64,000 bases of DNA from positions 248,001 to 312,000 of the forward strand of contig JARUPZ010000016.1 in the NCBI GenBank assembly GCA_031213475.1, in the 5' to 3' direction. Shown here one piece after another: positions 1-55,090 of this stretch. Under the pieces are notes generated by a model. That model made no database searches. It was not told where the DNA came from and saw only the letters and a list, made by a program, of their open reading frames with translations. Numbering within the stretch: the first letter of the stretch is position 1; the number at the start of each line of letters is the position of its first letter. This DNA is from Nereocystis luetkeana (lineage: Eukaryota > Sar > Phaeophyceae > Laminariales > Laminariaceae). The translations under genes and the position numbers were made by a program.

Positions 1-880
1 CCATAAATACTCACGCCTCGGTTAAGTCTGCTATTATAACGGTATATGTTGCTGTGTATATGGTTGTGCGTTCTAAGCACGGAAATACTTCGTAGAGTCC
101 ACATACAGCAGTAGAAGCATCATGTGCCCGATACATAGCCAACTAACTTGCAGTAGGTTGCACTTTTTGTTTGGGCGTTTCGTCACGTCTCACACATGCC
201 GCGGATCACATCATACGTCATACATGCACACATCATCATCACCTATATATATCGTACGTATCATGTTGCCCGGCCCATATCATCAGCTCGAGCCATTCGA
301 AAACATAGCATACACTGGGCTGGTTGGCGTTTCTTCGTATCATCTCCGTACTTGGTGCTGCCGCAACCAAGCTTTAACCACCCCGTTATGTTTGTGATTG
401 CGAAAACTACGTACCAGGTACGAGTACCAGGTATAGTTTAGTGTAGAATGGGGTATTCACAGTATACATAGCAAAAAAAGGGAGAAGTAAGACGAGTCGT
501 ATACCAGGTTAGCTTCTGGACAAGCCGGGGTCGCATGTGATGTCGTCCCTTCTGATACCAGGTGCAAAGTTTGATGTGATCATATCGTTTCGTTCCAGCA
601 CTGCTTTTTAGACACTTCTTGGGTCTGACTACTTGTGCAGCAGGCAGTTTTCGATTATTATTCCCGAAAGGACGATTCAGGGTATGAAGCTATGAATACT
701 GTACAACTGTTACAGGAGGTACCGCAGTGGTTTTCTCTCTCAAGTGCCGGTTGCCCGCTATCTTTAGTGCCTGTGCGATCGCTCTGACACAGATGGGATG
801 GGGCGAACCGTGTGCGGAAAAGTGTCGATTGCTGCTATAGTGCCGATTTCGCTGGCTGGCACAAACCGGCACCCTACCAC
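1..880. other. Gene-poor repeat-rich sequence
   Basis: No exon-like stretch was found on either strand. The open frames here are short and lack protein-like composition. The only structured signals are two exact TACCAGGTA words (412-420 and 425-433), close together, and degenerate versions near 501 and 555. Confidence 0.6.
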
Positions 881-1030
881 TATTACGGGGGACCATAGTT
901 AATTAGACCAAATATTGTTATTAATAGTAAAAATGGTTAAATATATATATATACCTGGTACCTGACCTGGTAGGTTTTTATGTCTACCATAGGTCCTACC
1001 AGGTATTATTAACTATGGTCCCCCGTAATA
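881..1030 (-). mobile_element. Palindromic MITE, copy 1
   Basis: Both ends carry the inverted repeat TTACGGGGGACCATAGTTAA followed by its complement, flanked by TA, so the element folds back on itself. The interior reads in the opposite sense to most other copies. It is the longest copy (150 bp). Against the family consensus it has extra CCTGGTA-type blocks in the interior (952-972) and an extra CCAGGTA block at 997-1005. No transposase is encoded. The TA flank suggests a Tc1/mariner-type mobiliser, which is inference. Confidence 0.9.
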
Positions 1031-2017
1031 CTACAATAATACCATTATACCGTAGTACCAGGCACAGCAGTATGTACTATCGTATAAGTAAGTGTGTAAT
1101 GTATGTATCAGGTACAGCAGTAGAATATATCTCGTCTTCTCGTACGAGTATACAATTTTTTGTATTCTATAGACTACTTCGTACTATAGTACTTTAATAA
1201 CGCGAATCAATTTCGATGCGTTATCGACACAGAATTGTTGTTGCTGTTGCTGTTGATGTTATAATTGCTGCTGCTGCTGTTGTTGTTACTCTTATTACCT
1301 TATATTGAACATGTATGTGTTTGAGCTGTCGAGGAGCTAACCAGTAACCAGCCAGCGAACAGCCCCACTGCGAACCAAGCGACACAATGGCGCAGACTCG
1401 CATACTACTACAGAGAAATCGATTTCTTTCTCTCGGGATTTTTTTCTCACGGAATCACACGCTCTACGCCCCCCGGGTTCCTCTCCCACATGGATCTGAG
1501 CCAACACGGCCCAGGCTATAAATTGCATCCGCAGGGGTGAGAGCGGAACGACGACTGGTCGGCCACAGCTGGCCATCAAAATCGCGCTCCAAATGTTTCC
1601 GAAACCGAGGCCCATCAAACGAGAAACCCCAGACCGCCCTCGTATTGTAAAAATTATTTTTATTGTTCTTCCACGTCCAAATCCGAATTTGCACAGCAGT
1701 ATCACAAACTTCTGCTTTTTATATTTCTTCAGTTGGTTGTGGAGGCCTGAACCCTGAGTCTCGGAATGGAGATCTTCGTGTGCGCCTATCAACTTTTTCG
1801 TGCTTTAATCAGCAATATCATTCAGTATTGATACGCTGTACCTACTTACTGCTGTAATTCCCAATAGCAACCACGCAACCACTGCTGGTTTCTCTACGAT
1901 CGACAGAATCGAGATAGATGTGGTAGATCCAGACTGACTGCGGCCCTTTTGGGACTTCAGAGAGGAAAGGTGACGATAGTAGTGCGGTCAGCATCTGATT
2001 CATCTTACGATTACACT
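1031..2017. other. Non-coding stretch with short TTG/TGC repeats
   Basis: Nothing gene-like is visible. A triplet-rich tract (GTTGTTGCTGTTGC type) lies around 1232-1290. A minus-strand open frame of 151 codons (1337-1792) has no recognisable domain and no clear splice context, so I do not call it. Confidence 0.5.
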
Positions 2018-2150
2018 CTTACGGGGGACCATAGTTAATACCCTGGTACCTGGTAGGACCTATGGTATACATAAAAAAACTACCAAGGTATATGTTTAAC
2101 CATTTTTACTCTTAATATTTATTTGGTCCTAACTATGGTCCCCCGAAATA
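2018..2150 (+). mobile_element. Palindromic MITE, copy 2
   Basis: Same terminal inverted repeats as copy 1, with a degenerate right end (CCCCCGAAATA). Just inside the left terminus it carries a tandem CCCTGGTA-CCTGGTA block (2041-2055) that the consensus lacks. Confidence 0.88.
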
Positions 2151-2177
2151 TTTAATAATACGAGCATCAGCTCCTAC

Positions 2178-2216
2178 ACACACGTACGCACGTACGCACG
2201 TACGTACGTACGACTT
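2178..2216. repeat. ACGT-type simple repeat
   Basis: A short tract of alternating CACGTACG/ACGTACGT units between a MITE and the next repeat. Low complexity, no further signal. Confidence 0.8.
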
Positions 2217-2300
2217 AAGTATTAATAGTAGCCAGGGCTTCTGGGATACATACCTGGTACGTGAATATCTTGTAGCGCCCAAAGTAATAGCGTATTTTGG

Positions 2301-2391
2301 GCCACGTCGATGCTGCCGGACTCGCCGGAGGCAGGCATGTTTTTACGCGATTTGGCTTCACTAGAACATATTTTTTGATTGATTTTGGGCC
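2301..2391 (+). repeat. 85-bp repeat family, unit 1
   Basis: The unit starts CGATGCTGCCGGACTCGCCG and ends GATTTTGGGCC. Two and a half more units lie at 2743-2945 and an inverted copy at about 47018-47117. This copy runs directly into the tRNA-like sequence at 2396, which suggests one composite repeat. Confidence 0.85.
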
Positions 2392-2395
2392 GGTC

Positions 2396-2467
2396 GCCCC
2401 GGTGGTTCAAGTGGTTAACCTCGAATTCTACTTGTTTGAGTCCTGGGTTCGAGCCCCAGGAGGGTCG
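2396..2467 (+). tRNA. tRNA-like sequence (probable tRNA-derived SINE head or tRNA pseudogene)
   Basis: The T arm is perfect: CTGGG (2443-2447), loop TTCGAGC (2448-2454), CCCAG (2455-2459). A D stem GGTT/AACC (2404-2407 with 2417-2420) and a five-pair anticodon stem CGAAT/GTTTG (2422-2426 with 2434-2438, including G-T pairs) can be drawn. The anticodon loop is TCTACTT, which lacks the invariant T33 and has a pyrimidine at 37. The acceptor strands pair poorly. A and B boxes for RNA polymerase III are therefore present, but a functional tRNA is unlikely. A short A-rich run follows (about 2487-2500). Confidence 0.5.
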
Positions 2468-2710
2468 GACTTTGACTTTATTTGCAAAAATAAAAAAAAG
2501 GGATTCAATTGTTGAGAGCGCCATGCAGCGTGGGTAGGCACAATTCGATGCGAGTCGACGAGGGAAGAAAAGGCTGAAATCTTCTCGCGATAAAAATGAA
2601 GGCACGTACCGTAGCGGGAAGGGGGGAGAAGAGCCTGCTATGTGACCCCGGATCTGAGTTACGAGTTGGAAGGAGAGAGAGAAGAAGATGTGCGAAGATA
2701 ATGAATGGGA

Positions 2711-2712
<2 letters not shown>

Positions 2713-2742
<30 letters not shown>
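2713..2742. repeat. Poly-A tract of 30 bases
   Basis: An uninterrupted A run sits between a unique stretch and the tandem 85-bp repeat units. It could be the A tail of a retrotransposed sequence on the plus strand, or simple slippage. Confidence 0.9.
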
Positions 2743-2744
<2 letters not shown>

Positions 2745-2945
2745 TCGATGCTGCCGGACTCGCCGGAGGCATGTTTTCACGCGATTTGGCTTCACTAGAA
2801 CATGTTTTTTTGTTGATTTTGGGCCACTTCGATGCTGCCGGATTCGCCGTAGGCACCGGAGGCGTGTTTTCACTCGATTTGGCTTCATCACTAGAACATA
2901 TTTTTTGGTTGATTTTGGGCCACTTCGATGCTGTCGGGACTTGGG
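2743..2945 (+). repeat. 85-bp repeat family, tandem units 2-4
   Basis: Two full units (2743-2825 and 2826-2921) and a partial third, head to tail. They share CTTCGATGCTGCCGG, the phrase GATTTGGCTTCACTAGAACA and the ending GATTTTGGGCC. The array stops at GGGTATAAATAC, and the inverted copy near 47 kb has the same boundary, so this is a true element edge. Open frames across it are by-products of the repeat. Confidence 0.85.
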
Positions 2946-3436
2946 TATAAATACCTGGTATTAATACCAGTAGTAGTACGTAAACGCAAAATATTTGTGG
3001 ACAACACAGTCATATATGTTGACTAATTTTCTTGACATCGGTGGGTGACATAGATAGCTAATCAATAATCACATGACTTGTGTATTCAACATAAATATTC
3101 ATCAACAAGTTGTTCCCGAAACATCTTGAAGCAAGTTGAAAGTCATGGTGGTGGTAATATTTCGGGATTTTGAGACCCGCCGTTCGGGTCTGCAGAGGGC
3201 GTGTTGCTGCTACTGATATTAGATTGTTCCATCGTGTGTACCCAACTCCCTCTAGTGTGTGCATGCCTTCGTCTCACAGAGCCTCTCCCCTCTGATGCGG
3301 CGAAATTCGTTGGGTTTCCATGTGGTTTAGGAGGCATAGTGTAGGGCGTGCGTAAGTGGGCCAAGTACTGCTTGTACTGGCGGCCTCTAATCTAGTACAA
3401 GGAGTACTGGCAGTACAGGAGTACTGCCAGTAGATA

Positions 3437-4721: not shown

Positions 4722-4753
<32 letters not shown>

Positions 4754-5034: not shown

Positions 5035-5149
5035 GTTATGGGAGGCCATAGTAAATAGAACCAAATATTGTTGGTAAAAAAAGCGAAATATATAGGTTTT
5101 TTATAGTGCCGTACCTGGTAGATCCTATTTAATATGGTCCCCCGTAATA
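5035..5149 (-). mobile_element. Palindromic MITE, copy 3
   Basis: A diverged copy with left end TTATGGGAGGCCATAG and an intact right end. It carries one TACCTGGTA insertion (5112-5120), placed where other copies read CCGTAGGTCC. Confidence 0.85.
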
Positions 5150-5617
5150 GTAGTAGTGTAATGGGTGGGAGGGATGGTGGGTCGATGGGAAGGAAATAAT
5201 TGGTGAAGGAACTCCTACACCAAATCGTCTCGGTGGCTACACAGGTCGCCCTTTCGAGGAGGGTATATCGATTTAAACTTCAGCTTAGGCTGGCTTAGGG
5301 GTTGTCAGGAATCGAGAAGGAGCAGGGGAGGGGGAGATGACAGACCCACAATGTCATCGGTGGCGTGGGGGTGAGGAGCTTGAATGCGGCTTAGGAGTAA
5401 CGAGTACCTGGTACATATTAAGATGTATAGGAGGGAGCAAACACTCAACACAACATGAAAGTATCGTAGATAAAACATAAAAAGTAGACATAGAAGATAG
5501 ATAGACGTGGTGTATGTATAGGTTTCCTTTGTGTACGAAGATTTCGTCTTTCAGGAATGTTTTGATTGATCAACGTGAAAGCTCATGCTGCACATTGTCG
5601 GATGGCAAGCCTACAGC
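5150..5617. other. No gene seen
   Basis: Unique-looking sequence with no exon-like frame and no strong repeat. One TACCTGGTA word lies at 5405-5413. Confidence 0.5.
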
Positions 5618-5726: not shown

Positions 5727-6413
5727 GTATACTTGGTATAGACTAGCTGTAACAGTTGAGAAGTGATAAAAAGCCGTACGTGCCTGGTACCAGTTACACT
5801 GGTATACTTTTTAGCTTGGTCGCTTCATGCCTGGTCCCAAGCGACCCCATTCTGTTCAAACGCAGGACTCCAGCTTACATAGGACCTTCTCCATCTACGA
5901 AGAGCCTGAAACCAAGAACCAAGAACCCACGAATGAGTGTGCGCATGTACTCGTATACGTCCTACGTATGAATAAACAATGCACGTATCATATTCTTCTG
6001 GTACCAGGTACTTGTACCAAGGTTTTACGAGCTGCCGCGTTGTTGTCGGATGTGGATTGTGGGGCTATATATTCATATCGATATATGTACTGCGGTAGCT
6101 CACGATTACCTCGTACTTTCTCTCTCTGTTGGTTGTAGTATAATAGTAGTACTTTATTTACTTGGTGCTGTAGACAGTAGTAGGTGCAGCATAGTATACC
6201 GAATATATGGAGTAGACGGCAGCAGTACGAGTACGGGTAGCATATACCAGTATCAGCAGTCCAGAAAACACACGTAAAAGGCATTAGGCAGGCCCAACGA
6301 GAGACCGCATTCTCTATCACCCCCGTACAGGTACACGATCAGTACAATAAGAGTACTATCATACAATAAGCACACACACACCTGGTAAGCAGAACAACAG
6401 CAGTAGTATTATT
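5727..6413. other. No gene seen
   Basis: AT-rich stretch with short open frames in all phases and no coding pattern. It contains TACCAGGTA at 6002-6010 and several degenerate versions (TACTTGGTA, TACCAAGGT). Confidence 0.5.
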
Positions 6414-6520
6414 ACTACGGGGGACCATAGTTAATAGGACCTATGGTATTGATAAAAACCTATATATTTAACCTCTTTTACTAACAATATTTGGTCCTAT
6501 CAACTACGGTCCCCCGTAAC
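6414..6520 (+). mobile_element. Palindromic MITE, copy 5
   Basis: The left end is TACGGGGGACCATAGTTAAT and the right end is ACTACGGTCCCCCGTAA. The interior matches the consensus without a CCWGG insertion. Confidence 0.9.
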
Positions 6521-7138: not shown

Positions 7139-8298
7139 TTGCACCACCACGGGGAGCGGGCCACCGTGATGATAGACCCTTTCGTGCGCGTGGTGATAGA
7201 CCCTTTGGGTGAGTCTATCGGTATCGGGGCGATGAAGCTGCGATTTCGGGGTGCGCGCTGGGATGCTAGTGTAGCTGCCACCTCTGGCGTGTCCGCAAGG
7301 GCCCAGACAGGCGTACCCCCAGTAGGCACACATCCAGATCCGGTGCTGTCCTTGCAGGACTTCCTTCGGGAAGAGGGTGTCTTGCCGGGGCTCTCCTTAC
7401 CCTTGCGCCGCCTCCCGAGGCCCCCACCAAGCACCGATCTCGCTTCGTGGTCGTATGCGGTCGCGATCCAACGCTATCGAGAAGGGGAAGAGGCCCTCCG
7501 CCTGACATCCGAGGGGTCTGGGGAGCTTGGTGGGGTCGCAAAGGACTCGGAGCTTTTGGACAACAAGCTTCAGGTGCAGATCTGTTTCTTATTTATGCGG
7601 CAATAAACTACGGTACATATTTACTTGTACCAGTTACGTTACGTGTTTACATCACGACAGACGCCCACCGGCTTTACAGTAACTGATCCACCGACAACAA
7701 TCGGTTTCATGTTTTTTTTCTGCGGGAACGCTGCTCAGTGCTGCTGTAAGCCCAGGCGTCCCATTTTGTGTCGTTCCCTTGTCGCCATCACGAACAACAG
7801 GGCGCCGACCGCTGGCCACAGAAATTATCTCAGGAATGTCACCGGGATGGCGTCGCAGCCCTTCCTACGCCAGTCTGCTGCGTCATGAGCAGTGACCCCA
7901 CCATTACCATGGAATCGGGGCGATCTTTCCTGCGTTTCGTGCTCACGGATCAGCAGCTGCGGGGCCATTTATTGTCGGAAATGGGTATGCAGCTAGGCGC
8001 GCAGGGGAACCTCTTATTGGCGGCAGCCTGCACGGATTCTGCCTCCACCTATTCCAGATTCGCTGGACGTATTGATATCAGCCACGACCAGTATCTGAGC
8101 GGTAATCTCAAGCGCCTGCGAGAAGCGAGGCCTTTGCCAAGAAGCGAAAAAAGGTGTCTCCCTCGTGTCGGAGCCGAGAGCGCGTCCCAGGTGCGAACCT
8201 CAACAAACTATACCAGGTACACGTTGTGCGGTGCTGAGCGGAATGCTACCAGCTCGACCACATGGGCGAGAGAACGTGGGGGATGCACTTTAGAGTAA
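7139..8298 (+). pseudogene. Decayed coding-like sequence, family unknown
   Basis: Two successive plus-strand frames look protein-like but do not join into one gene. The first (7139-7606, 155 codons) contains PGLSLPLRRLPRPPPSTDL and SWSYAVAIQRYREGEEALR. The second (best from about 7885) contains SFLRFVLTDQQLRGHLLSEM, SASTYSRFAGRIDISHDQYL and a basic end. No catalytic motif is visible. The zone has no clear GT-AG boundaries, and further broken fragments lie to about 10.6 kb, so an old mobile element is more likely than a host gene. Confidence 0.25.
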
Positions 8299-10581: not shown

Positions 10582-11767
10582 AAACACGAGGTCTTGCGTT
10601 CCACGGTGGTGAGTGGTGTGGGGCCAGGATGGCGTACGAGAATGGGTTGTTGAAGTATAAATAGCAAAGCTGACGCCCTCCACGGACACGGCGTGGTTGA
10701 CTTACAATAGATGGGCTGAATCGCTTGGCTCGTTCCACGACCAAGCAAAACGAAGATGAGGGTGTTCTACTTTAGTACCCATGAGTCGTGTATAGTGCGT
10801 ACCAGGTACCTGTCAACACCCACTTTTGAAGGCGGTCATTGGTTCGAGCATTCATTTCGTAATGGATCGTCGTGGCGTGTGCTTCTTCGCCCCAGAATGG
10901 CACTGTCTCGTCAAGCAGCCTACCATCGAAGCCGGGGGCTTTTCTTGACTTCGCAGCGAGGAAGACGCACGCGAGTACTCTTTTTGAGCGAGCAGCTTCT
11001 CTTTCCACGAAGGCTGGGTGGAGAGGGGGGGGTACATCGAATTCAGTGACGAACGGACTGCTGGTGGATATATTGGGTGAGCGCATGGCGAAACCATCAC
11101 CCTATTCCTCGATAAAGCAGTAGCACATATGTTGGCAGAATTTTTACGGGCTACGCGTCACGACTAGATCCTTGACTCCCGTTTTTTTGCCCCACGCGCA
11201 TACGTCACTTTCAACCGTGGGCCCTCCTCGCCGAAGAATACTTTGCGCGCGAGCGTTCAAGGGATAATACCAGTCATGTCTGCAGAGTTCCGTGGATTGA
11301 AGACCTTCGCTATTCGTCATAGAAGAATTTGGCACGGTTCAGGTATCCATCAAACATGCGCACCCCTCCACCTGTTCAAAAACTATTTCGCGTGCACGGA
11401 GTCCTCTCCAGGCCACATATTCCTCGACGACGGTGTCGTGTACCTTTCGGTTTTCTGCTGTAGCTTGCATCATGCCCTTGCTTCAACCCGTCATGAGATG
11501 GCTAATGACAAAGAGCAGCCCTCACGTTTGCCACGTGCTTCACCTTCACTCCCGTATCACCTCTATCCAGCCCTGTTCTCGGTATAGTTAGAGCAGTCGT
11601 TCAGCGCGAGCACAACCCCATTGCATGACTAGCACAATTTAACAAACTCCAACAAACGTTGTTACACGCGACGCCGCGGATGTAGAGGTGCCTCCGGTCC
11701 TGCCTATATTCGACGAGCCGCACTCTGCCGTGTCCATATCCTTCCTTGCATCTGCTGTGTTGTCTCT
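10582..11767. other. Upstream region of the 11.8 kb gene
   Basis: Several short open frames overlap on both strands and none has a domain. This stretch should contain the promoter and any 5' untranslated exon of the plus-strand gene starting at 11768. I see no distinct TATA box or other core element. One TACCAGGTA word is at 10800-10808. Confidence 0.35.
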
Positions 11768-16100: not shown

Positions 16101-19100
16101 TCGCGTGTTTCGATCGCACTCACAACAAAATGCGCAAACTCCAACAAACGAAAGCAGGCCCGCTCCCCGTTTGTGCTGCATGTGCTCCGCCCAGACCGGA
16201 AAGCAAGCCGACAGACCGCTGTATGCGGTCGTGTCCGAAGAGCTTGTCGGCAAGGCAGGCTCGCTGGTGATGGCACTAACAACGCCACAGCGCGGACCCA
16301 GTGTAGGGGCATATTTGAATCCCCTGCAACGTGCACCCGCGGGCAGTGGGTCAGGCGCACGGAGTCCTGAGCGATTCGCGCTCCTGGAGCTGCCGGTAGA
16401 GCCGCCCGTCGACCTCATCGTCGGGGGAAGGTGGGCGGTGCCTTCCAGTCATGCTACGGGGCAGGGCGGGGAACCGAATATTAGAGAAAAACAAAACACA
16501 GCTGTGATATCTGAAAATTACTCCAATGTTATCCTTGCAAGCTTGGTGTGATGTTTCATTGCTAAACCCAACGTTCCATAACTGCCGATATCTCTGTACC
16601 TCAACAAAAACGTAAAACGGAATTGAGAATAATTAACACGTCGAACAGATAATCGATTTCCACTTCATGGCGGATCTATATGCTTCAGGGCGAATATATC
16701 CCTGATCTGTATGATCTAGCTCACGGTTCCGGGTGAGGGAGGTATAACCTGCAAGGTCTAGGACATGTTTCCTGGGTTAGATATGTACCTTACAGCCCCT
16801 GCGCAGCGTGTCATCACGGCAGGCTAGGCTCTTCAGTAGATGATCTAGGTCGTGATTAGTCCGAGGTGTGGAATAGTTGTATGCGCAACCCGATGAGCAA
16901 ACCTCCTTGGCTGTGCATATATCAGCAATCCCATTGGCTAGGCATATAACAGAAACGCATTGGCCAGGTGTATTATAATTATATATTCCTATTGGCTAGG
17001 TATATAACATAACCCCATTGGCTAGGTGTGTAGCAACAATCCCATTGGCTAGGCATAACATCCCATCGGCCAGATATCCGACAGAATGCCATTGGCTAGG
17101 CGAATAACTGCAATCCCATTGGCTAGGCATATCACTGCCGATAGAAACACCCACCGACCTCGTCGTCGGAGGCAGGTGGCTTATACCACATATTCTCCCC
17201 GCACTTATCCTACGGCAAGGGTTCACATCAAAGTTGTGACGTTCCTCGCTGAAACCGCTCTACCCTCAGTCTCGATCTAGCTCCACAGCCAACCGGACCA
17301 CATTTGGAAATATATGGACCACGTTGCTCCGCAGATTATGACATAACGTTATAGCTGGACGGTGTGCCGAAGGCGTTTCCGTTTTATTGGCGCGTCGCCC
17401 CAGGAGAAACAAACGTTACCGACGATTGGTGGGATCAGTTGACGAAGGGACTGAGATTGACCGCGTATAGCAGTTCAGAAGAAGTCCCGTGAGGGTAGCA
17501 GGATGTTTTGAGGGCCTGTAATCGCGACTGATATCTTGCCTTCGGTGATATACATGGACAGGCTACGTATATCCAGCCGCTGCTCAAGTAGTGACAGACA
17601 GTGGGTGACATGGGGTTTAGGCGACTGAACTCGGCTGTGCCGGTTGTATGCGCCCCTGACGGCTGACACTGGAGTTTCGAATATGTGCTTGAGATACGTT
17701 TCTTGCTTGGAACGGAACTGAGATCAAAGCGAGTTCATCAAATAGCGAGACAGCCAGCGGCATCAACAACACTGTCAAGTCGATGAAGTCTGAGGCGTCT
17801 CCTGACATTCCCGGCTCTGCAGCAGGACGTTCCGCATCATACGATTTCGATACGTAAACCTACTATTTTGTGTACCTGGTAGCTCTCTATCCCTCTGTCA
17901 CGTAACGTACTGAGACCCCCGCCCCCCCCCCCCCCCCCCCCCTTTGCCCCCTTTTCTGTTAGACGTGCCTACTGTTAGTAGAGTCAAATCAAATTGTCGA
18001 AGATTTGACACCCCTTCCCCGGACAGGAGTATGTGACACATACTAGAAACATGGGATGCCCTGCACCCGATCGTAGTGTACCGTAGCGAGTAAGATCGCT
18101 GAATTTGCACAGGAATGCGCGATTCTTCATCAGCGCTCGTTTTATCGACAATGTCAAGGGTGCTGAAGTCGTACCAGGTACGTTATATTTTCGGCTGGCT
18201 CTCGACGAGATTCCCTTGTGCGAACTCAACGGTATTCACGGTAGGCGACACAGGCTTCAAATGTGATGGCGCTTGAACCCACGCCCCCCGCGCTGTTAAT
18301 CCCAACACGCCATGGTATCGCGCCTTTCGCAGGAGCGCCATCGTCATAATCGACAGCCGTACTGTATCGTCAGTCGAACGCGGGGGCGGAAGAGGTGGAG
18401 ACTCGTCCGGTGTAGAGGTTGGGGTTTCCGAGGAGGCCTCGGCGGAAGCTGAGATGGCGGAGGCCAAGAAAAAGCTCCACCTCCTCACCCTACAGACCCT
18501 CAAGTACTCGACGCTGTGGATCATACTGCGGGTGAGCCCTGGCTGTCACGACGGTGCGCATGTTGGTGTATTATCGTGCCGTAGACGCATACTACGGTAA
18601 GACAATAGGGGTTGAAACTACTGCAGTAGCAGGGGTACCCTCTCTAAGACCATGGCACCCACTTCAAGAACATCCGTTTTCAGACTTTTCGGGAGATAAA
18701 ACCAGCTAAACAATTGGCGTGTCACGAGGAACACACTGCTTGAAACAAGAGTATGGTGAGTAGCAACAGATAATGCTGTTGTAGTATATATAGACGAGAC
18801 CACGCTTATTGGCTTGTCACGGGGATGGTCTTGAAATTTGGGTGGGTACCCCCACTGTAGCACTTTTTTACAAAACTTCTTCCTGACTGACGGGGGTCCT
18901 TAACCTATTAAGCATCTTGGGACTCCAGAGGGGTCAACGATCAAAAGTGACGGCGATCATAGCGATGGCCTCTACGTGATTGGGGCGTGATATGGGCGTG
19001 ATATAGGTTGGTGCCCGAGTTGCGATGCAACGAGCCGTACGGCATGGGCACAACGTGGTCCTCCCCATACTTGTGGAATCTCACGCTGCCCGCAGATGGT

Positions 19101-22100
19101 TAACAACACCAAAAGTATCAAGGTCCTTGGTCGCTGTGTCGGGGTCTCAAAACCTTGGGCACTCGCGCTAGAAAAACAAATCTTGAGTCTTTGCCCTGTT
19201 TTTGGTACGTATACCTAGAGTAGCCCATGACACCATTCATCAGCCTTGCACTTCAGTTTTTTCCAACCCTTCTACAGTAGTAGTAGTGCACTGCACCACA
19301 TATGAGCTTAAATATGTCTCTAGTTTCGAGTGCTCTGTCCCCAAAACGGGAGTGAGGTGCGAAAGGGGTTAAGGCCAGGTTTTGGTCAGGGAAATGGCCT
19401 ATCCCACGGTAAGGGTTGCACTTTTTGCCTTCTGACGCTTTCTCCGAATTCAAAATTGATGAAAATAAAATAACAAGCCATATTTTAATCCCATTTTTTT
19501 TCGAATTTTAATTGATAATATCGAATTATTTTCTGACCGGCTGAGCTCCTCAAGTGAGCAACTATTACATATCGGTTAACATTATTTAGTAATTTACTAT
19601 CGCGGAGGCCCATACTGAATACGCCCCAAACGAACCCAAACTGCCAACTCTGGTGCGTTGTATCTCAAGAACTACTGCGTTAACCCCTTTAGGACCGCAG
19701 TCCCGTTTTGGGGGCAAACAGTACTTGAAATTTGAATGGTGTGTCCCCAAATTGGGACTGCGGTTCTAAAAGGGTTAATCGATAATCAATTAATGGTGTC
19801 CGTTTTAAATACACTACTGACGATAGGCGTTCCAGCGATGCTACGTTTACGTTACTCAGAAATACATTGGGAAGCCTCTTTCCCCCCGTTTTGGGTCTAT
19901 GTATTAGGAGCCAACGTGACAGTATGTTTGTTTTAGGACTAGCGCACATATGTTTTGTTCGGGCTGCGGATACAACCTTTCTTTATCGAAGGCAGATTTT
20001 CGGGTGAGATATAATGAGAAACCACGTGACAAGCTCAGAAAACAACAAGTCACCAACCCTAAAGGGGCATGGCTCGTGTAGACTAGAGCTCCTCAAGTGA
20101 GAAGCCTCCTAAAACATTAGGTACACCCCTATCGCAGCCTTCACCCGCTCATACACTGGGATACTATTCATATCTACTACAGAGAAAACCTCTCTGCGTT
20201 TTGATTTCCGCGCGCGCTTGGCCTTCAGAGGGCGAAACCGGATGGGCGAGGTCTTCGCTGGTCGACATTAATTAGTGATCGTATGCCGTGTTGACCGGGC
20301 GTGGTCCGAGAAATGTTTAGACGCATCCCACGGCGGTGGTTGCACTTTTTGTTTCGCTATTTATTATCTGACCGGTTGAGCCCCTCAAAAACTCAACTAC
20401 GAGTATACCGGCTACTACGGGGGACCATAGTTAATACCAGGTAGGACCTATGGTATACATGAAAACCTATATATTTAACAATTTTTACCAACAATATTTG
20501 GTCCTATTAACTACGGCCCCCCGTAATAGTATAGTATCATACTTCGCACTGGTGGTATATGTTGTTTCGGAGGTCGCGCGAGGAAATGTTGGTTGGGTTG
20601 CGCCTACAGCTTTGTTCGAAGTCATGTTTCGGGCGATACATCGAGCTACTCATGCGAGTAGCCCAGAAAATGAGGCACCACCCCCAAGGAGGCCTTGCTC
20701 TTTACCGTCTTATTGGTGACTCGTTTACCGCCCCTGTTGGGCAAGTAGGACCTTTAACTATCGCATGCAATGGAGGAGAGGGGGGGGGGGGGGGGGGGGC
20801 AACTGGTTGCCGCTGCTTCTGTTCATCTTTGTTCGATCCCTGCTCTTCCCGAATGCGCAGATGGGAAAAACTCGCGTCGGTCGAGCAGCAGCAGCAGCAG
20901 GATCAAGGGGGGGCACCCTAGTCTGCCCCGCCTTTGAAAGGCTGGAGCAATGGTTGGTGGGATTCCCATGCAGAGTGTTTATCAGGCGCGTTACCTACTC
21001 CGACCGGGTGCAACCGTAAGCGGTGGGGAAACGAGCCGAAGGCCTTTCATTCATCCAGCTCGTTGTGCCTCGACTGTTTCGTGTTGACGCAATTTTGAGT
21101 CGAGTCGCGCTGTTTCGTGACAACTATTACGGGGGACCATAGTTAATAGGACCAAATATTGTTCGTAAAAATTATCAAATATATAGATTTTTATGTATAC
21201 CGTAGGTCCTATTAACTATGGTCCCCCGTAATACGTGGCATGTACGAGGCTGTCAGTATCCGCCGTCGTGTAGCGCTCTCGGTGACTGGGTGCCATCAAA
21301 GGGCCCGGGTCCAAGCGGGGTACATGCCTGCCAAGCGTTCGTCCCGGGCGCGAAATACGTTTTTAAGTTTGCAGTTCGTCGTGCACGTGCTGTGCAGTAG
21401 CGTATTATAGCAGAATAGTTGCGCAATCTACGATCGAGGTACACCTACCTATTTTTCTGAGGCTGCGATACTCACTTGAGCAGCCTATACTACTATCGGT
21501 AAACCACGCGTGACCTGACCTCGAGACTGATGAAAGTTCAACCCGACGGAAAATGCCATGTTCTAGGCCCCTCCCTGTCGAAAAATCGCGTTCAACACAA
21601 AATAAATGACACTCGAGCAAGTCCTCGGTGCCCTGTGAACTACTAAGCCTCTTGGGACTTCAGAGAGAAGAATCGACGGGAAAAAATGACGATTACAGCA
21701 ACGATGACTGCGTGATTTGAGAGGTGGTAGAAATCGCTGCCCTATCATACTGCAGTAGACCTATAATGCAAGCAGTGTTGCAAGCAGTGTTGCGAAACGG
21801 GTGCAGTAAGATCTTGCCCGTACCTCTGGGCGCTCACGATGCTCGCAGGCCGCTGATACTACAGTAGCAAAGCCATACCCCTGGTAAGTGTTTACCAGGT
21901 AGGTCGCGATTTCGGGGTCCCAAATAGGTCCAGGAGCCCCGCCTGTCACAAATATTTTGGTGAAACAGTTAGTGCTATCCCTATCATTCTAGCACGCCTC
22001 ATAATTAATGTTCCCCGTTTTGTATGAGCAGGTTACAGCAGACGCAACCAGGATACCTTCCCACCGGGAAGGCGGGCATCTGCATATATATATATACTTC

Positions 22101-25100
22101 AGACATATGTCAAGCCGAATCATGCTGTCCACCCACCACGTTTTCTTGCATTCCGTCCGGTCAAACCAGATACAGCAGCAACGAAGCTCAGCTGACAGAG
22201 CTGATCTCCCACGCGGCCTTAGCTGAGCAGCGATTGGCCAGAGCAGCCACCGGTACGGTCACGGCATCCCCCCGGGGTGGCGCAAACCGTCGTCGGTCGG
22301 ACCCTACCTCGAGGGAAGCGCCTACCGTATCCGGGAGGTCACCACTGGAGGCAATCGAACGTCTTTCTCGAGACGACCCCGACTGGGCGGCGGTGCACCA
22401 CCGGCAGGCGTGGTTCCTTCAGGTGCTCTGAAGACGCGTGCTCGCCTTGTAGGGGCATGTAACACCTATTTTGCCTTCTTCTACGGTTGCCCGCTTGAGG
22501 TGCTCTACACTGTCAGTAAGTCCGTGCTACCTCGCCAGGAAAACTAAATTCGAGAAAAAAAGCAAGAAAAAAAGCGCAGCCCGATCAACACTCCCGAAGC
22601 CTATTGATAGTAAGTATGAATAGGTATATCAACATGCGAAAATAGTATGAACACTAAATAATGGCATTCCAACGATAATATATATTGGGTCAAAGAGCCC
22701 GGTCTGTCCCAGTGACATATTTTGGTCAGAAATTGTGCTGCCACCATCGTAGCACGCCTCTTAAGGAAATGCATGTCTCTGAAGGGGGGGTTAGGGGGGG
22801 GGTTAGTTAGGTGTATGATATCCCAATCTCTGGCCACCCTCGGTCCCAAATTTCTTGGAAATGCCAGTCTGAGATCATTGCAGGGGTGTTTTCTCATGCG
22901 AGAAGCAGCGTACCGTAGATAGATGCGAGAAGCAGCGTACACTAGTGGTATTAATAACAGAATAATGTAGGCAACAGGTACGATATACGTACATCATGTT
23001 TATATAAAATATACCAGGTACCAGGGTATAGGGGTAGTGATGGATGGAAGTAATTACCTATAATGACTCAACCGGTGTATTAATTTTGAAAAAAGATGGA
23101 GACGATATACTTAACCGTAGGGGCGCATGTCTGAGGTCGCCACGTTGCGGCCTTGGTATCCCTTTAATGATTAGCGCGAGGTAGCTGATACATCTAAATA
23201 ATTACTACCAGGTATAGATTTAGGCATGCGCGCAAAGGAAATATATCTCGCCGTGCAACCCGATACGATCGTACAAGGTTGGTTGCTGCCTGTGTGAGCG
23301 GCGTTTGGTGCGCATGTCACATTTTCTCGGGTGCCCCCCACGCCTCAGCAGCCAAGCACTGCCCCTGTAGAGGTGGCGCCTTATTTTTTTATGAGCTCCT
23401 TGCAAAGGGAGCTCAATATCTCAACCGGAACATACCTGCGAAGAGCGTTTGTTGTCGCAACCCAGCCAACATTTATATGCGCCAGTCCTAAAACAAGCAA
23501 TACTATTAATCTTAATAGCAACAGTGTCACTTGAGGAGCTCCGCCCTGGCCGTAAGTATTCAGTCTCCTACATTATTGTTTGTATCATGGAAGCTTCCAC
23601 TGCTTCCACGAAGGCTCGTGGAAACTTCCATGGAAGCTTCCATAAAAAAACGCAGATTTGGCGCTGAAGTGCAATCGGCAAATGGGATGAGTAAGTCTCG
23701 GCTGCTTTGTGGAGCAGATGCTATTACTACCACCACTTTGTGTTTACATATGTTCCCCGTTAAGGCATGCCCTTAAGTCTAAAGCATTGGTGCTACGGTA
23801 GGAGGGGGGCGGGTGTACTCGATCTCATGCATGGCCGTGGTCGTATGACCATAGACCCTTGCATCCCTGCGATGCCGGGACGGAGCACGTCGGGTTTTCA
23901 CCGACCAGGCAGGCCTTTCTTGCGCCAAGCGCGAAGCGCCGTGAGGTGTTCGGCGAGTCGCATGAAGGGTGAGCTGCATCCTACTAAAAACCACGCTTGT
24001 GAGGCGGACTCGCACAAGGATAACGGCGTCAATGAGTTGGTTTATTTTCTGGTGTGGCCACTTCCAGAGACAGCAATGTAATGGTGCTGCAGCAGAAGGG
24101 GGCGGTGCACTCGATATCATTCAGGGCCGTAGTCGATTGAGCATAGGCCCCCGCGACACGTAGAGGGAGGCGTTTTTTTTTTAACCTCTCAGAGCCCCTC
24201 CGATCGAGTGACTATCCCGTTCCCTTGCAGTCGTGATCTTTTTAGCCTTTTTGTTTTCGCGATAAGCACCACCATGGGATAGTTTGTTACTCTCTACGCC
24301 AACTAAGAATATGTGTTTGTCGGTTTTTTTGCAAGGCGCAGGGTCACCTACCCTATTACGGGGGACCATAGTTAATGGGACCTATGGTATACATGAAAAC
24401 CTATATATTTAACCATTTTTACTAACAATATTTGGTCCTATTAACTATGTTCCCCCTAGTAGTGGCGTAAAGGCAGTAGTAGTGAAAATGGCGGCAGTTC
24501 CGCTACTAGCGTATATATCACCAGTCCACAGGGGCTAACCCCTCAAGTAAGTGCTGCAATCCCTCTATTACGGAGGACATAGTCAATAATAGGACCTACG
24601 GTATACATAAAAACCTATATATTTAACCATTTTTACTCACAATATTTGGTCCTATTAACTATGGTCCCCCGTAATAGGATGGGACAAATAGTTAAAATTC
24701 GTGTAGGATTGATTTTAAAAAAATAGTCGCGTGCATACTGCTCGTATGGCAGTCGACGTTTTCTCCACGTAACAAGCCCATCTATCTGACAGTCGTCGAC
24801 CCCCTCCCCTCATATTGTGTGTCCTGTGTGCCCTTCCTTCGGTTGATCTTCTCGACATTTTTTTGTTGATGGGCCACAAACGGCTCGTGAAACACAAACA
24901 CAGCTTTTCCCGGCGCTGAACGCCTACTCAGCCTCGGCCCTCCTTTCATCGGCTTCCTTGAAGCACCTCATCGTCGCGCCCTTCGAGGAACTGGCTCCAT
25001 GTCTCTTGGGGAAAGGCAGAGGGACTGACGGAGGCGGGAGTGGGGGGGTGGGGGGGGCGGCGCGTGGGGGCGTGGGCGCCGAATCTCTCCGTGATTTTTG

Positions 25101-26072: not shown

Positions 26073-26190
26073 TATTACGGGGGGGCATAGTTAATAGGAC
26101 CTACCTGGTATGGTATATACATAAACACATATGTATTTAACTATTTTTACTAACAAGATTTGGTCCTATTAACAATGGTCCCCCGCAATA
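26073..26190 (+). mobile_element. Palindromic MITE, copy 10
   Basis: Carries a diagnostic clean insertion: consensus GGACCTATGGTATA becomes GGACCTA-CCTGGTA-TGGTATA (TACCTGGTA at 26102-26110). Confidence 0.92.
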
Positions 26191-29301: not shown

Positions 29302-45568
<16,267 letters not shown>

Positions 45569-47240: not shown

Positions 47241-47244
47241 ACTG

Positions 47245-49300
47245 TTTGGACCCAGTGTACTGGGTGCTGACGCCGCCAGTACCCAACCCTAAAAACTCAC
47301 CATAGGGGTTTGTTTTTTTGACAAAAACGTCGAGAAGTGCTTTAAAAACTTGGAATTAGAGTCGGTGGTTTCCTTGATCCGCAGAGTATGCAAGAGGGGT
47401 AATTTCTCAAAGCGGGCAGAAAATCACGCCAGAATTTCGCACAAGGAGATGCTGTTTTCAACCGGCTAAAAATACGACTTCCTCGCTCGCACCTTTGGTG
47501 TGTCCCTCGGCGTTTGGAGTTCGTAAAAAAGCTGAATAGCAGCAGCAGCACAGCAGGGTTTGCCCTCGAGCCAGACTAATCTTCAACGCTCGGATATATA
47601 GGTAGGCGTTTGTGCGGGAGGCATTATGAACTTGCGCATCGCAGTACGTAGCTCGACTCAATCTGTCATGACAGAGGAAACAATGACAATCACATCGAGG
47701 AAAAAAATATACCAGGAGATCGCATTCTGCAGGCTGCAGGCTGAATAAGAGAGCAGTCACGCGACGAGCGTGTCAGGTTTCTAGGGCCGCAGAGTTCACC
47801 GGGCGGATCGCCATCATGCGAGCGCTTCCTACCCGCCAGTTGATATTTGGTTGGTTGGGTTGAGCGTTAGAATTACACCCTGTGTGCGTAGCTCGGACCA
47901 TGTAGCATGACGGAGGAAACCATCACAATCATACCGAGAAAATACTGATACCATTAAGTAATCGCATTCTTCAGACTGCAGGCTGAACAAGAGAGCGATC
48001 TGCTCGGTGAACTCTGTGGCCTCAGAGACCTGACACGCTCGTCGCGTGACAGTTCTCTTTTTCAGCCAGGCTAAGGCTCAACGCCGCCGACATTGCTGCT
48101 GTTGCAGGGTGATGGCTGCAAGTTCGTACTACACCGAGAAGCAGGCTGTACTTGGGTTGGGGGTTTGGATTGTATGGCGGTGCTATAAATGAGCTCCTGC
48201 TGCAGAGCTGTGGCTGCTTCTGCTGCATGTTGCTGAGAGGGTTGTGCTCGTATGGTCAAGCACCTCGGTTCTACTGTATTATCCTTGATATTGGGCATGC
48301 TCTTCTTGTGTCCTCGTATGGTTGAGCCCCTCCGGGGGTTTATTCGGGGCAGAATAGTGATGGTATGGTAGGTGGTACGGTACGGTGTGGCATGGTGTGT
48401 GTTGTGGCATGGTACGGTACGGTGTGGCATGGTATATGTGTATCAAATGTAGCGTTACCACCCACAGAGTACCATAGTGGCACGAGCACCTGCACCAGTA
48501 CTACAGCATCGGGATCGATTTCATTGCGGTAATCTGTTTTTGCTGTGCGAAATGCATCATCAAGCGATGCGGTCACAGCGCAGAAACCTTTTGTACAACT
48601 ACTAGAACTTCCTGTCGCGCGAGGTTGTCTCTGTCTAGGATAAGGCATGGACACTGGTTGTCCTGGATGTTCACGGCTGGAAATAAAAGTTTAGTGTGAA
48701 GGACAAACAGATCCATACCGTATATATACCAGACGGTGTCTGGTGCCGGGTAGCCCTATTTTTGTTTACCGCGTGAAACGAACACAACGAATTGCACATA
48801 CAACAATTCGATACTCGTACGAGTCGACGAGACGAGGAAAGCGCATGGCTCGAGCTGTTTGCTATTGTTGTTGCAGTTGCTGCCTACCAGGTATTGGATA
48901 ATTTCTCGGATTTACTTTTGAGCAGGAAGCGACCCTGCCGAAAAACGCCGCGCAATATATTGCAAACCCCAAGGGGTCAAGACCTTGCAGCCAGGAGCGG
49001 CCTTGCACGGCCTTTTGCGAGCTGCGGGCAACGACCTCATTAACGCCGTTAGCCAACCACGCTGAGTGAGCCATGCGTCTATAAGGTAATCCCGCTTTTG
49101 TTACAATCGACTCGCAGTAGCCAATATGCGGAAGACGTCGCTGATTGTACCGACTCTGGCATAAGCGATTGTCTACAAGCGACGTATGTGTCGTACCTTC
49201 TCCGCTTTATTTTTATTGCCCACCAGACCTTTCAATATCCCCGACTGCTCGTCGATTTTCATCAAGCTTTGCAAACTAACGACCCTATCAGACAAGAAAA
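47245..49300. other. No gene seen
   Basis: Only short frames. A diverged duplication pairs about 47640-47760 with 47885-48010 (GTAGCTCGGACC/GTAGCTCGACTC, CATGACGGAGGAAAC, GCATTCT[T/G]CAG..CTGCAGGCTGAA). ATGGTACGGTACGGTGTGG repeats lie at 48358-48435. Confidence 0.5.
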
Positions 49301-49329
49301 AAAAAATCAACTACTTCCTGCTGTGGAGA

Positions 49330-50690
49330 CCGTTTTCCAAAACTCGATGTGGTACAAGTTTCTATACTCGTTCGTGCAACGCGTGGGGGTGGTACAACAA
49401 CAGCAGTATGGTACCAGGTATCTTGGTACAACAGCAGTATGGCATCTACAACACTCGTTCGTGTGATGTTGGTACAACAAGAGTAGATGGTATCTATACT
49501 CGTTCGTGCAGGAGTACTCTGGGCGGGGCATGCTCTTCTTCTTGAGTCGTCGTTTGGCTCTGCGGTCGGAGAGCTGGCGACGCTCTGTTATCCCTATTAT
49601 AGTCGCGCGTTTGCTCCTCCTGCTCTGTCACCCTGGAGGCAGTGCAAGTGGAGCTATCATTTTGCTGAACAGGAAGGAGTGTAAACAGAGGTAGTAAGGG
49701 GACCCCCGCTGTCGGACGACGATTCCGACGTGCAGACCACGCCACGCATTTTTCAAGTCAAAAGCATCCCTAAAGATCCCTTCTCCCAGATTGCTAAACC
49801 TACTCGTGTGTTATTTTATGTACTGCTGAACTGTGATGGCGCTTGTACGCACGACGGTTACAAAGCAATCGACAGACGAATAGACAGGCGATATCTGCAC
49901 CACACAGAGGATCGTAAAATATAAGCGAATTAAAAGGTCCCCAACAAGCAATTCCATTGTGACAGAAGATCTCTGGTCCCTATCCTCTCGGAAGAAGTTG
50001 TCGGGCCGTCTTATTCGAACTAATTAATGCTGTGGAGACCATTTTGCAAAACTCAATGTGGTGTGGTGTTGGTGCAACAGCAGTATGGTACCTGGTACCT
50101 TGGTACAACAGCAGGATGGTTCCTATACTCGTTCGTGTGGTGTTGGTACAACAAGGGTATGGTATGTATACTCGTTCGCGCTCGAGTGCTCTGCGCGGGG
50201 CATGTGCTCTTCTTGGGTCCTCGTATGGCTCTGTGGGGAGAGAGCTGACGACGCTCTGCCATCGCTCGTCGCGCGCTTGCTCCTCCTGCTCTGTCGCCCT
50301 GAAGGCATGCTCTTGTGTACTTATGGTGTTGATACTGCAGTATGCGGTCAGAGAGCTGACGCTCTACCATCGCTTGTCGCACGCTCGCATGCTCTTGCGC
50401 ACTTGTGGTGTTGGAACAGCAGTATGGTATCTATAACCGCTCCTGCGCTGTCGCCCTGGAAGCATATGCTCTTGTGCACCCATCGCTCTGCCATCGCTCG
50501 TCGCGCGCTCGCATGCCCTTGTGTACTTACTTGTGGTGTTGGTAGCAGTATGGTACCTATGCTCGCTCCTGCTGCTTATGTGTACTTGTGGTGTTGGTAT
50601 AGCAGTATAGTGTCTATACTCGCTCCTGCTCTGTCGCCCTGAAGGCGTGCTCTGGTGCACTTACTTGTGGTGTTTGTTGTTAATAGTACA
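49330..50690. repeat. Complex GTTGGTACAACAGCAGTATGG repeat array
   Basis: Two blocks (49330-49650 and 50020-50690) repeat GGTACAACAGCAGTATGGTA, CTATACTCGTTCGTG, GGCATG(T)GCTCTTCTT and CGCTCTGCCATCGCTCGTCG in a patchwork. Many triplet-phase frames result, with no conserved protein. Confidence 0.8.
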
Positions 50691-50757
50691 TTAGTATAGT
50701 GGTATATATACTCGTGCAATCCTCGTATGGTTGAGCCCCTTAGGTGGTGTTTGCTGG

Positions 50758-51884: not shown

Positions 51885-52605
51885 TCCAGCGGTCCGACGA
51901 TACAGATCGGTGCCGTGAGGCCAGCGGCTCGACTCCGACTCGAGCGCGTTATTTTAGCGCTGTCACTGCTATACGCAGCAGTTCAACGCGATATTTCCAG
52001 CGGCCTGGCGATACAGCTCGGTGCCGTGATCATAGCCGCTCGACTCCGACTCAGGCGCGTGATTTTAGACTGCACCGCAGAACAACATGAATTTTCCAGC
52101 GGTCCGATGATACAGCGGTGCCGTGATCATGGCCGCTCGACTCCGACTCAGGCGCGTGAGTTTAACGCTGGCACTGCTATACACGGCAGAACAGCATGCG
52201 TTTCCCAGCGGTCCGACGATACAGCTCGGTGCCGTGATCATAGCCGCTCAACTCCGACCCAAGCGTGTGATTGTAGCGCTGGCACTGCTATACACGGTAG
52301 AACAGCATGAATTATCCAGCGGCCCGACGATACAGCTCGGTGCCGTGATCATAGCCGCTCGACTCCGACTCAGGCGCGTGATTGTAGCGCTGACACTGCT
52401 ATATACAGCAGGACAGCGTGTTGTTTCCAGCGCCCGGCGATACAGCTCGGTTCCGTGATAATAGTCGCTCGACTCCGTCTCAAGCGCGTGATTGTAGCGC
52501 TGGCACTGCTACACACAGCGGTTCAACGCGATCTTTTCAGCGGCCCGACGCAACTCGGTTCCGTGATTACAGCAGCCCGACTCCAACTCGGGCGCGTAAT
52601 GTTTC
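51885..52605 (+). repeat. About 105-113-bp satellite, seven units
   Basis: Each unit has TTCCAGCGGTCCGACGATAC, then GCTCGGTGCCGTGATCATAG, CCGCTCGACTCCGACTCAGG, CGCGTGATTGTAGCGCTG and CACTGCTATACAC. Unit starts are near 51885, 51991, 52092, 52201, 52314, 52426 and 52534. Because the unit length is not a multiple of three, the long frames change register and are not a repeat protein. Confidence 0.9.
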
Positions 52606-52609
52606 AGTC

Positions 52610-55090
52610 GCCCAACAGACTCGAGTTTGTGTACTGTTAATACACCTTTCATTTTTACACCCAAGGAAGCTAGAGGGGTACGCCGCGAGAAGCTGGTCAA
52701 CACGAAGATGGAGCTCAGCCTGGATCCGGACGACTACATAAATATGATTTGCATTTGATCCCGGCGACTGATTTGTGTACGAGAGGATACGCCACGCCAG
52801 CTATGAGGAAAGTAACTATGGATTTGACGATCCCCGCGCACGGAACACATGAAGCGAGCAGGCAACGGAGAAGTAAAGAGAAGCGCTCAAGAAATGGTGA
52901 GTGTCATCAACAGAAATAACAAACAAACAGAGCTATCCGCTCGATTTTGATCTTGGATTTAGATTTATTGCGAGCAACACATTTTGGTTGTACCAGGCAC
53001 GTTAAATTATTTTGGTTTTGGATTTCGATTTTCGATTGATTGCGGTAAAAATTAAGTTGTACGTGCCTGACTTGAGGTTGAGATTGGAAGGGGAAATGGG
53101 CTCCAAACGTAGCTGCTGGCCCTTTAGCAATCGAATAGCTCTGCTGGATAACCAAGTATGTATGTCCAGGTTGCGTACAGAGAGTGGCATATGAGTTTCT
53201 GAAGTAGAAACAGGTCTGCTGAATGCTTCATGCCATTCATGCAGTGTGTTCGGTGGTTATCATGAGGGTGTAGGAATTACTGGTGATTTCGGAGGTTATC
53301 ACTAGCTGCAATCGTTGGTTTCGTTCGTTGTTTTTGTTTGTTTGTTTGTTTGTTTTCCAAGTCTACCGCTGCCCAGACTCTGTTTATATTGGATACGTGT
53401 TGCAATTAGTCTACCCATGCAGCGATTGTGTCGAGCTAAGGGGGAGTAATGTAATCCGCTTGAACATAATAGCTAAATGAGTTGAAGCTCATTGGCTCAG
53501 GTCACGTTCCGTCTTATCCTCAGCGTGCGTGTTGCGATTAGTCTACCCATGCCGGGATTATGTGGAGCTAAGGGGAGTCATGTATTCCGCTACAACATAT
53601 TATCTACATGAGTCGAAGCTCGTTGGTTCAGGGTCCGCCGCACATCTTCTTGTGCCGTGACGTATCCGACACCAACAGGTATATCTTGCGGGTCTTGCCG
53701 CTGGTAGCTTCGATGTACGTGCTTCGTCTGGTTTTCCTTCAAACAGATATTAGGGCGTTGACACCTAGATCGCTGATCAATGCTCTTCGCCTCCAGCAGT
53801 CGTACTGTAGCCGGGGGCAACAGCAGGTAGAAGCACTGTACTGTAGACCGTTTGTTGGTAGAACGTGAAATGGACGCAGTGAGAATACTCAAGCAGCAGT
53901 TATGTTAGGCTAGGGGAGTGACGCATACTGTATTGCGCTTCAACAGAATGTCGGTACATAAGCTCAATGGCTCAGATTGCCGCTACTTCAGTACAAGCGG
54001 CTCCCCTATATTTACAGTTTTTTGCTATTATAGCTTTTGAATGTATCACGTGTTGCAAGTTGCTGGCTGGTGGTAAGTTAAGGGTCGGACTTTGTGCTCA
54101 TAAATACGCATATGCCCATGGAGCTATACCTTCCAGCTACGTAGGGGAGTCAGATATTTGCCGAGGACAAAGTATCTAGACGATATCGTTGATCTCATTG
54201 ATCTGGTAGCACAGCATCCACTCACGTGACGTATCCACCAGATGTTATCGAGTACCAGGTACGACATCAGGTTTTCGCTGTATATTTCTATTGCGAGGTC
54301 TAGCTCTATAATAGCGTCCCTACAGACTTGGCACAGGAACCGTTTTATCGGTATAATTTGAGTGTTCTATAGTGAGAAGTGAAGTCATGATGTCGACACA
54401 AATAGTGCTTATCGTTAGCCATGATCAGTATTTTAGTAATCTTGAATTTCCGTCCAGGGGGAGTGTTTTTGTGCAAAAATAAGCTAGGTAGGTACCCTGT
54501 TCATTTTCGATATTGGCTACAACAATAAGCAGCTAACTGGGTTGTTTAAGGACACTTTATTCAAGTTCGCCTGGCATAAAGTAAATAAAAAAAAAGGTAG
54601 AGCAAGGAAATCATTGGGTCCATTTTGTTCAACTTTACTTGCTATTTTCGCGGGAATAATGGAGTTACGTGCTAATCTTTGATTCAGCTGCGGTGGTACC
54701 TTTACTCCTTGCGCTACGCTGTATTGCTTCAGTAGAACATACTACTGAGCTAAGGATCCACTGTCTTCATGAGAGATATATGTGTGTTGTCATCTGAGAT
54801 ATGTGTTTTCGTTCGGTACCAAACTCATCAAGTAAGTGGCCCCGCGAACATGCCCACGAACCAATCCACAGATAGATCCAGATCCAGTCTGAAGTCTGGC
54901 TGGTGTATTCCAGGTACAATAATATTTCAGTAGACATATATGAAACTCAAGAATACCGCGATATTAGACTTTAGAGCCAAATTATGTGTCTCGAGTTTTA
55001 TACGAACGTCGGGTATAGGCGATATTATTGTCGCGATACGTGGTCCGCAACACACAATATAAGCTTGGGGTATTTTTACCTCAAGCATAT
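52610..55090. other. Repeat-rich stretch without a convincing gene
   Basis: Contains an about 130-bp diverged duplication (53398-53505 against 53528-53635, GTGTTGC[A/G]ATTAGTCTACCC) with a partial third near 53905, and two GTACGTGCCTG/CAGGCACGTTA inverted words near 52995-53070. Open frames of 86-100 codons at 53590-53892 lack a domain. Confidence 0.45.

Follow-up and report, generated by a model that had tools for sequence, protein, structure and literature searches.

A nine-base-pair palindrome strewn across the genome of the brown alga Nereocystis luetkeana behaves like the excision scar of a TA-targeting transposon

A stretch of 64,000 nucleotides from Nereocystis luetkeana (assembly GCA_031213475.1, contig JARUPZ010000016.1, positions 248,001 to 312,000 of the forward strand; hereafter the window) is strewn with the 9-bp palindrome TACCWGGTA, in which W is A or T. 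We consider it very probable that most of these words are scars, each left by one insertion-excision cycle of a cut-and-paste transposon of the Tc1/mariner type that would target TA and cut with a 5-nt stagger. The genome-wide counts carry the main argument. Gains of the word inside copies of a repeat family, a symmetric target preference, repair-like variants and a sixth base that is linked to A in the centre also support the excision-scar reading, which had been proposed from the letters of the window. The word thus works like a Tc1/mariner excision scar; that its source belongs to this family we infer, since none of the loci read showed an element ending in CCWGG.

In the window the word occurs 31 times, while 100 dinucleotide shuffles, which served as null, gave a mean of 0.44 and a largest count of 3. 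The 29 positions listed in the sequence-only reading were all exact, and the scan added those at 20435 and 48885. TACCWGGTA had the top rank among the 9-mers of the window (31 versus 0.42; 9-mers with at least 12 occurrences, after a low-complexity filter) and came first in a scan for palindromes (31 versus 0.64). The excess over chance claimed earlier extends to the whole chromosome-scale assembly (465,085,209 bases in 1,987 contigs of up to 21.9 Mb), for which a genome-wide count had been proposed as a check: we found 182,395 places for TACCWGGTA versus 1,744 for the reversed word, used as control. Twenty 10-kb stretches, taken at a fixed position on C1-C15 and C17-C21, contained 66 words in 200 kb, and 18 of the 20 held at least one. 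Extrapolation from 14,547 TAs counted in 264 kb puts the TA dinucleotides of the genome at about 25.6 million, of which the 182,395 places of the scar would make up roughly 0.7%.

When 5 bp to either side were included, 116 of 117 words were unique, and therefore the words are not generally copied within longer repeats. The words at 49412..49420 and 50089..50097 are a paralogous pair within one longer repeat, with different centre bases, thus not every word is independent. Replication as part of longer repeats, which the sequence-only reading had set against the scar, was accordingly found for this pair and not for the words in general.

A plain TA turns into the word by gaining 7 bp. This was observed in a family of miniature inverted-repeat transposable elements (MITEs) of about 108 bp with the ends TATTACGGGGGACCATAGTTAATAGGACC, whose copies within the genome were compared in place of strains. 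We aligned 28 copies, 13 from the window (between 881 and 59861) and 15 from other fetched loci, and found seven words in six of them. The words occupy three TA positions, at which the majority of the other copies show a plain TA. These positions are TTAATA/GGACC (words 997, 2047 and 20435), GGACCTA/YGG (5112 and 26102) and AACCTA/TATAT (952 and 29802). The clean gain reported before, from GGACCTATGG to GGACCTACCTGGTATGG, is real and is the one at 26102. Word scan and MITE alignment place copies with words at 881..1030 (minus strand; two words, 952-960 and 997-1005), 5036..5149 (plus; 5112-5120) and 29753..29869 (minus; 29802-29810); further ones lie at 2019..2149 (plus; word at 2047-2055, together with TACCCTGGTA, a variant one base longer than the main word, at 2039-2048, and an TACCAAGGTA variant), 20413..20528 (minus; 20435-20443, with several empty paralogues) and 26073..26190 (minus; 26102-26110). 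Wordless copies were found at 6413..6519 (minus; an empty paralogue for 20435 and 26102), 21125..21233 (minus), 43318..43425 (plus) and 59753..59861 (minus). Where several copies have a word at the same MITE position, the words are not alike in centre base or in local structure and are thus probably separate events. The gains from TA to TACCWGGTA also speak for a duplication of the TA target, an evidence that comes from scars and not from a resident element.

In the window 6 of 13 MITE copies carry a word, in the other aligned loci 0 of 15, and the genome-wide rate at the commonest MITE position is about 3%; the enrichment in the window is either chance or a local hot spot. The first MITE position, which is present in both MITE ends, was found genome-wide in its empty form CATAGTTAATAGGACC at 23,206 places (11,714 + 11,492), in the half-word form CATAGTTAATACCWGG at 712 (352 + 360) and in the whole-word form CATAGTTAATACCWGGTA at 658 (326 + 332). 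A scan for empty paralogues, covering more than the MITE copies, identified a relative with only TA for 9 of 117 words versus 5 of 393 TA-N5-TA controls.

The DNA around the words has the symmetric, AT-rich, transposase-like character of a target around TA. We compared 99 unique non-tandem words (198 half-sites) with every TA of the DNA that holds them, which includes loci fetched for transposases or MITE sites. Of the 198 half-sites, 96 have A at -6 (background 0.26, p 1e-11), 104 have W at -7 as well as at -8 (background 0.27, p 9e-14), and only 14 have T at -1 (background 0.19, p 3e-6). The preference is symmetric and reaches 8 bp.

Variants of the word suggest what the end of the source element would look like. 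A form that is one base longer and has A in the centre, TACCAGGGTA, is present at 11,422 places in the genome (5,725 + 5,697; control 409) and its counterpart TACCTGGGTA at 1,578 (780 + 798; control 362). A symmetric word gives no reason for a sixth base linked to A, whereas an end reading TA-CCAGGG does; from this tie between the extra G and the centre A, the letters of the scar appear to derive from this longer sequence. Part of the 11,422 places sits in an array on C1 (C1:1304145-1308362), where eight TACCAGGGTA copies were observed, the last seven at a spacing of 528 bp, which suggests a satellite carrying one scar variant. A further variant, TACCGGTA, was counted 24 times versus 4.7 expected, with a TA-only relative for 2 of 23 in the empty-paralogue scan. 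The alignment of the 28 MITE copies contains one TACCGGTA gain and one TACCAAGGTA gain, and both variants fit the repair of an A:A mismatch.

The word does not look maintained and decays like unconstrained DNA. In 264 kb the word was counted 97 times in its exact form and 119 times with one mismatch, versus 55 expected for the latter, while shuffled words of the same letters had on average 0.95 of the expected one-mismatch forms (sd 0.27). If all of this excess is decay, the mean divergence since insertion would be near 8%, which would point to a long-running process.

These observations can be brought together in a mechanism. The scar has the form of a self-complementary CC[A/T]GG with a mismatched centre, as the terminal nucleotides of a predicted element would leave it. 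On insertion this element would duplicate the TA, and on excision its transposase would cut 5 nt, sometimes 6 nt, inside each end, so that either flank would carry a CCAGG 3' overhang. The overhangs would anneal with a central A:A mismatch, which repair would turn into A or T, with CCGG, CCAAGG and CCAGGG as rarer products. The new TA of a scar could be hit again, giving part of the tandem words. The element would keep jumping and stay scarce, so that scars build up in a clock-like manner while residents are few. A more far-reaching version, to which we give somewhat less than an even chance, is that the transposon with this unusually long 5-nt 3' stagger belongs to an undescribed group or stays mostly outside stable chromosomal sites, and that it has entered and left a single genome on more than 180,000 occasions.

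The tandem form TACCWGGTACCWGGTA, as seen in the window in TACCAGGTACCTGGTA at 32927..32942, occurs at 15,917 places genome-wide (control 2). The inner side of a scar, TACCWGG, has T at -7 and A at -6, two bases that the target preference appears to favour. Among 59 plus-strand places listed, the two centres agreed in 40 and differed in 19, a concordance that is too high for independent events, which would give agreement in about half. Perhaps about a third of the tandems are duplications and the others re-insertions into the scar's own TA. The earlier suggestion that tandems reflect repeated visits thus applies to part of them and not to the others. In viral contigs the tandem word was found in 9 stretches with 2-3 words each, which looks like background.

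The sequence-only reading had predicted a transposon with CCWGG ends, and here the outcome is mixed: the mechanism is supported by gains, target symmetry, variants and the A-linked base, but the element did not appear in the sequence read. In the genome, a profile search with PF03184 (pogo, DDE_1) gave 28 matches, and one with NF033545 (IS630-like) gave 47 at an E value of 0.1 or less, none of them above the curated cut-off; no match of either set was linked to the scar. No match was obtained in the genome with PF13358 and PF01359, the latter of which matched in no control genome either. We read 16 transposase loci, among which both ends were seen only for L043; in most others the element ends could not be set. 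The DDE_1 loci (L043-L048 and L049-L052) stand for 11 of the 28 matches and the IS630-like loci (L053+L058+L059, L054+L060+L061, L055+L056, L057, L062 and L063) for 9 of the 47, and independent families are fewer than 16 due to the copy pairs L043/L045, L053/L054 and L055/L057. Some candidates were rejected: L023 2141-6126, as a perfect element with TACCAGG ends, since its inverted repeat continues beyond these positions, and the window MITE, since its ends read TATTACGGGGGACC. The half-word MITE places were inspected as well: of the first 100 listed (of 712), 95 were also whole-word places, and the remaining five consisted of two TACCAGGGTA, two with CA for the second TA and one small deletion. 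None of these five altered places, out of 54 without the second TA, contained a resident element. Residents therefore seem scarce, and an element of low copy number that jumps often and persists would give such a ratio, because scars accumulate while residents do not.

Several results weigh against an origin of the words by excision. An element with TA-CCWGG ends was seen neither in the window nor in the 20 fixed-position stretches nor in the 16 transposase loci. In the empty-paralogue scan a TA-N4-TA control gave 30 of 394, making the scan weak when taken alone, and one of the nine TA-only relatives (window 2047) aligns to another scar variant and not to an empty site. Of the 712 CATAGTTAATACCWGG places at the MITE position, the 100 listed comprise 71 with T and 29 with A in the centre when read in MITE orientation, which departs from the 1:1 ratio expected from random mismatch repair; the bias could be due to scars passed on as MITE copies were amplified, or to an effect of orientation. 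The centre base was not correlated with flank asymmetry in 90 words (p 0.40). Some of the tandems are probably duplications, given the concordance of 40 of 59, and the 5-nt stagger exceeds the 1-4 nt of the footprints described in the excerpts of the studies compared.

Other explanations have to be weighed against excision scars. The word could be a functional or conversion-driven genomic palindrome that is maintained by selection or through the action of a sequence-specific enzyme, similar to HIP1, a palindrome of cyanobacteria. Its palindromic form and very high copy number would agree with this, but the words are 7-bp gains at TAs of MITE copies that are mostly without a word, one-mismatch forms are present at more than twice the expected number as in decaying DNA, and a symmetric function would not link an extra G to a centre A, so that we regard this explanation as very unlikely. 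We rate slightly lower still the possibility that the word has spread within longer repeats or as a 7-bp minisatellite. The 15,917 tandems with their concordant centres, the longer repeat of 49412 and 50089 and the C1 array with TACCAGGGTA are of the kind that such spreading would generate, and some of the same-position MITE words could be inherited copies. It would explain only a minority of the words, since a common extended flank was not seen in most of them, 116 of 117 are unique, and same-position MITE words differ in centre or structure.

It might also be possible that the source has never been a long-lived resident, being an extrachromosomal, viral or developmentally excised TA integrator or a TA-cutting nuclease. 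The source was not seen in the loci read, and when the first 100 of the 712 MITE places were inspected, the five that deviated from the canonical form proved to be altered scars without a resident, as this explanation would have it. However, the sample is small (5 of the 54 half-word places without the second TA), and an ordinary transposon of low copy number that jumps often would also have low residency; we hold a non-resident source to be improbable, though less so than the two preceding explanations. Searches with the MITE end and with a LINE-like protein (long interspersed nuclear element) gave no match in viral contigs, and the LINE-like protein had none in phages.

The genome contains further elements that target TA. 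A pogo element, L043 38-2061 (in C1:8319130-8322681), is flanked by TA, encodes DDE_1 and has matching 8-nt CAGTGGGG ends on both sides; L045 (from 1222) is a partial copy of it, 99.7-100% identical, internally deleted and without the right end. Like the predicted source of the CCWGG scar, this element is flanked by TA, but it is excluded as that source by its ends, which read CAG and not CCAGG. The scar predicted for it, TACWGTA (TAC[A/T]GTA), is in excess with 123 versus 51 expected, and in the empty-paralogue scan only 3 of 123 had a TA-only relative versus 4 of 390 controls.

The word TACGAGTA/TACTCGTA occurs at 82,203 places (41,495 + 40,708) versus 9,641 for the reversed word, and 51 of 51 contexts were unique in 332 kb, which suggests a candidate second genome-wide TA scar; none of these 51 had a TA-only relative. 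The word is located in the window at 419, 1143, 5948, 6226, 20398, 30305, 48812 and 61747, and elsewhere for example at C1:18892-18899. TAGWCTA showed a mild excess (39 versus 17.8). Several families of TA scars may thus be present side by side; among those for which counts were made, CCWGG is the most frequent. In the 332 kb of loci TACAGCAGTA was also in excess (23 versus 3.3, all contexts unique). Contexts rich in ACAGCAG gave no clear scar pattern.

Two IS630-like copies, L058+L053+L059 (C10:3951300-3955800) and L060+L054+L061 (C30:2037100-2041600), are 99.3% identical over 4.2 kb and have open frames of 493-515 aa. At their right end, which reads TATTACGGAGGCTCATAATTAGTAGGACC in one copy, they are similar to the end of the window MITE; the left end was not reached. 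Judging from this likeness, the element may be the autonomous partner of the window MITE. Another pair, L055+L056 (C20:960400-963500) and L057 (C24:8371050-8373250), is 99.8% identical over 1,746 bp and encodes a transposase of 489 aa, which we take to be plant-mariner-like. Their common sequence begins at AGTCCGACAAAAAATATAACC, and TAGWCTA is perhaps the scar of this kind of element.

Footprints of the form TAC[A/T]GTA are left by Sleeping Beauty, and the footprint of Minos is a 4-nt Tc1-type scar, which resembles TACGAGTA/TACTCGTA and differs from the CCWGG scar in end letters and length. We know of no other genome-wide scar population of such a size, and literature searches showed none by title. 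No mention of TACCWGGTA was found in the literature searched, and a search for excision footprints of Ectocarpus transposons yielded nothing related, judged by title. According to an excerpt of PMC7827188, the cuts made by Sleeping Beauty and mariner lie 3 nt inside the ends, and the footprint is identical to the overhang. TA duplication, a staggered cut inside the ends, a footprint equal to the overhang and repair by end joining would be shared with the system described here, whereas with five terminal nucleotides retained in the main form, the scar of Nereocystis differs from the 3-nt stagger of Sleeping Beauty. In the excerpt of PMC9632168, excisions of Ppmar2 and Osmar5 leave 1-4 nt, and that of PMC1925063 describes, for Stowaway sites, an insertion adjoining an older footprint. 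Duplication of TA, terminal nucleotides left behind, heterogeneous lengths and re-insertion beside an older footprint would be likenesses to Osmar5, Ppmar2 and Stowaway. In contrast to their varied footprints of 1-4 nt, as given in these excerpts, mainly one 5-nt form is present here.

The remaining words of the window were located by the word scan, without assignment to a strand. Two words lie at 412..433 (412-420 and 425-433), and single ones at 2251..2259, 2952..2960, 5405..5413, 6002..6010, 8211..8219, 10800..10808, 17873..17881, 18172..18180, 21893..21901, 23206..23214, 31417..31425, 38504..38512, 42983..42991, 43701..43709, 48885..48893 and 54253..54261. At 23012..23028 the word is followed by the one-base-longer variant TACCAGGGTA, and at 45151..45166 by a decayed second word (TACCTGGTG). 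Rfam and tRNA scans of the window gave no matches, and a Pfam scan of seven frames matched a single one, 41657-42193 on the minus strand, with an MIT domain (E 4.4e-8). This frame lies upstream of the frame 35108-35896, which was called AAA-ATPase-like by eye and had no match in Pfam; the two are perhaps parts of an intron-rich, spastin-like gene.

In the excerpts of the studies compared, excision footprints were investigated at one locus or in one assay at a time. If the words are indeed excision scars, the traffic of DNA transposons in this genome would be far above what the resident copies seen show, the stagger would be longer than in those excerpts, and many insertions of 7 bp in this lineage would have arisen in this way. 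Scars would far outnumber residents, each scar being one tick of a transposition clock, and even with the element missing, the scars would allow earlier transposition events to be counted, dated and mapped.

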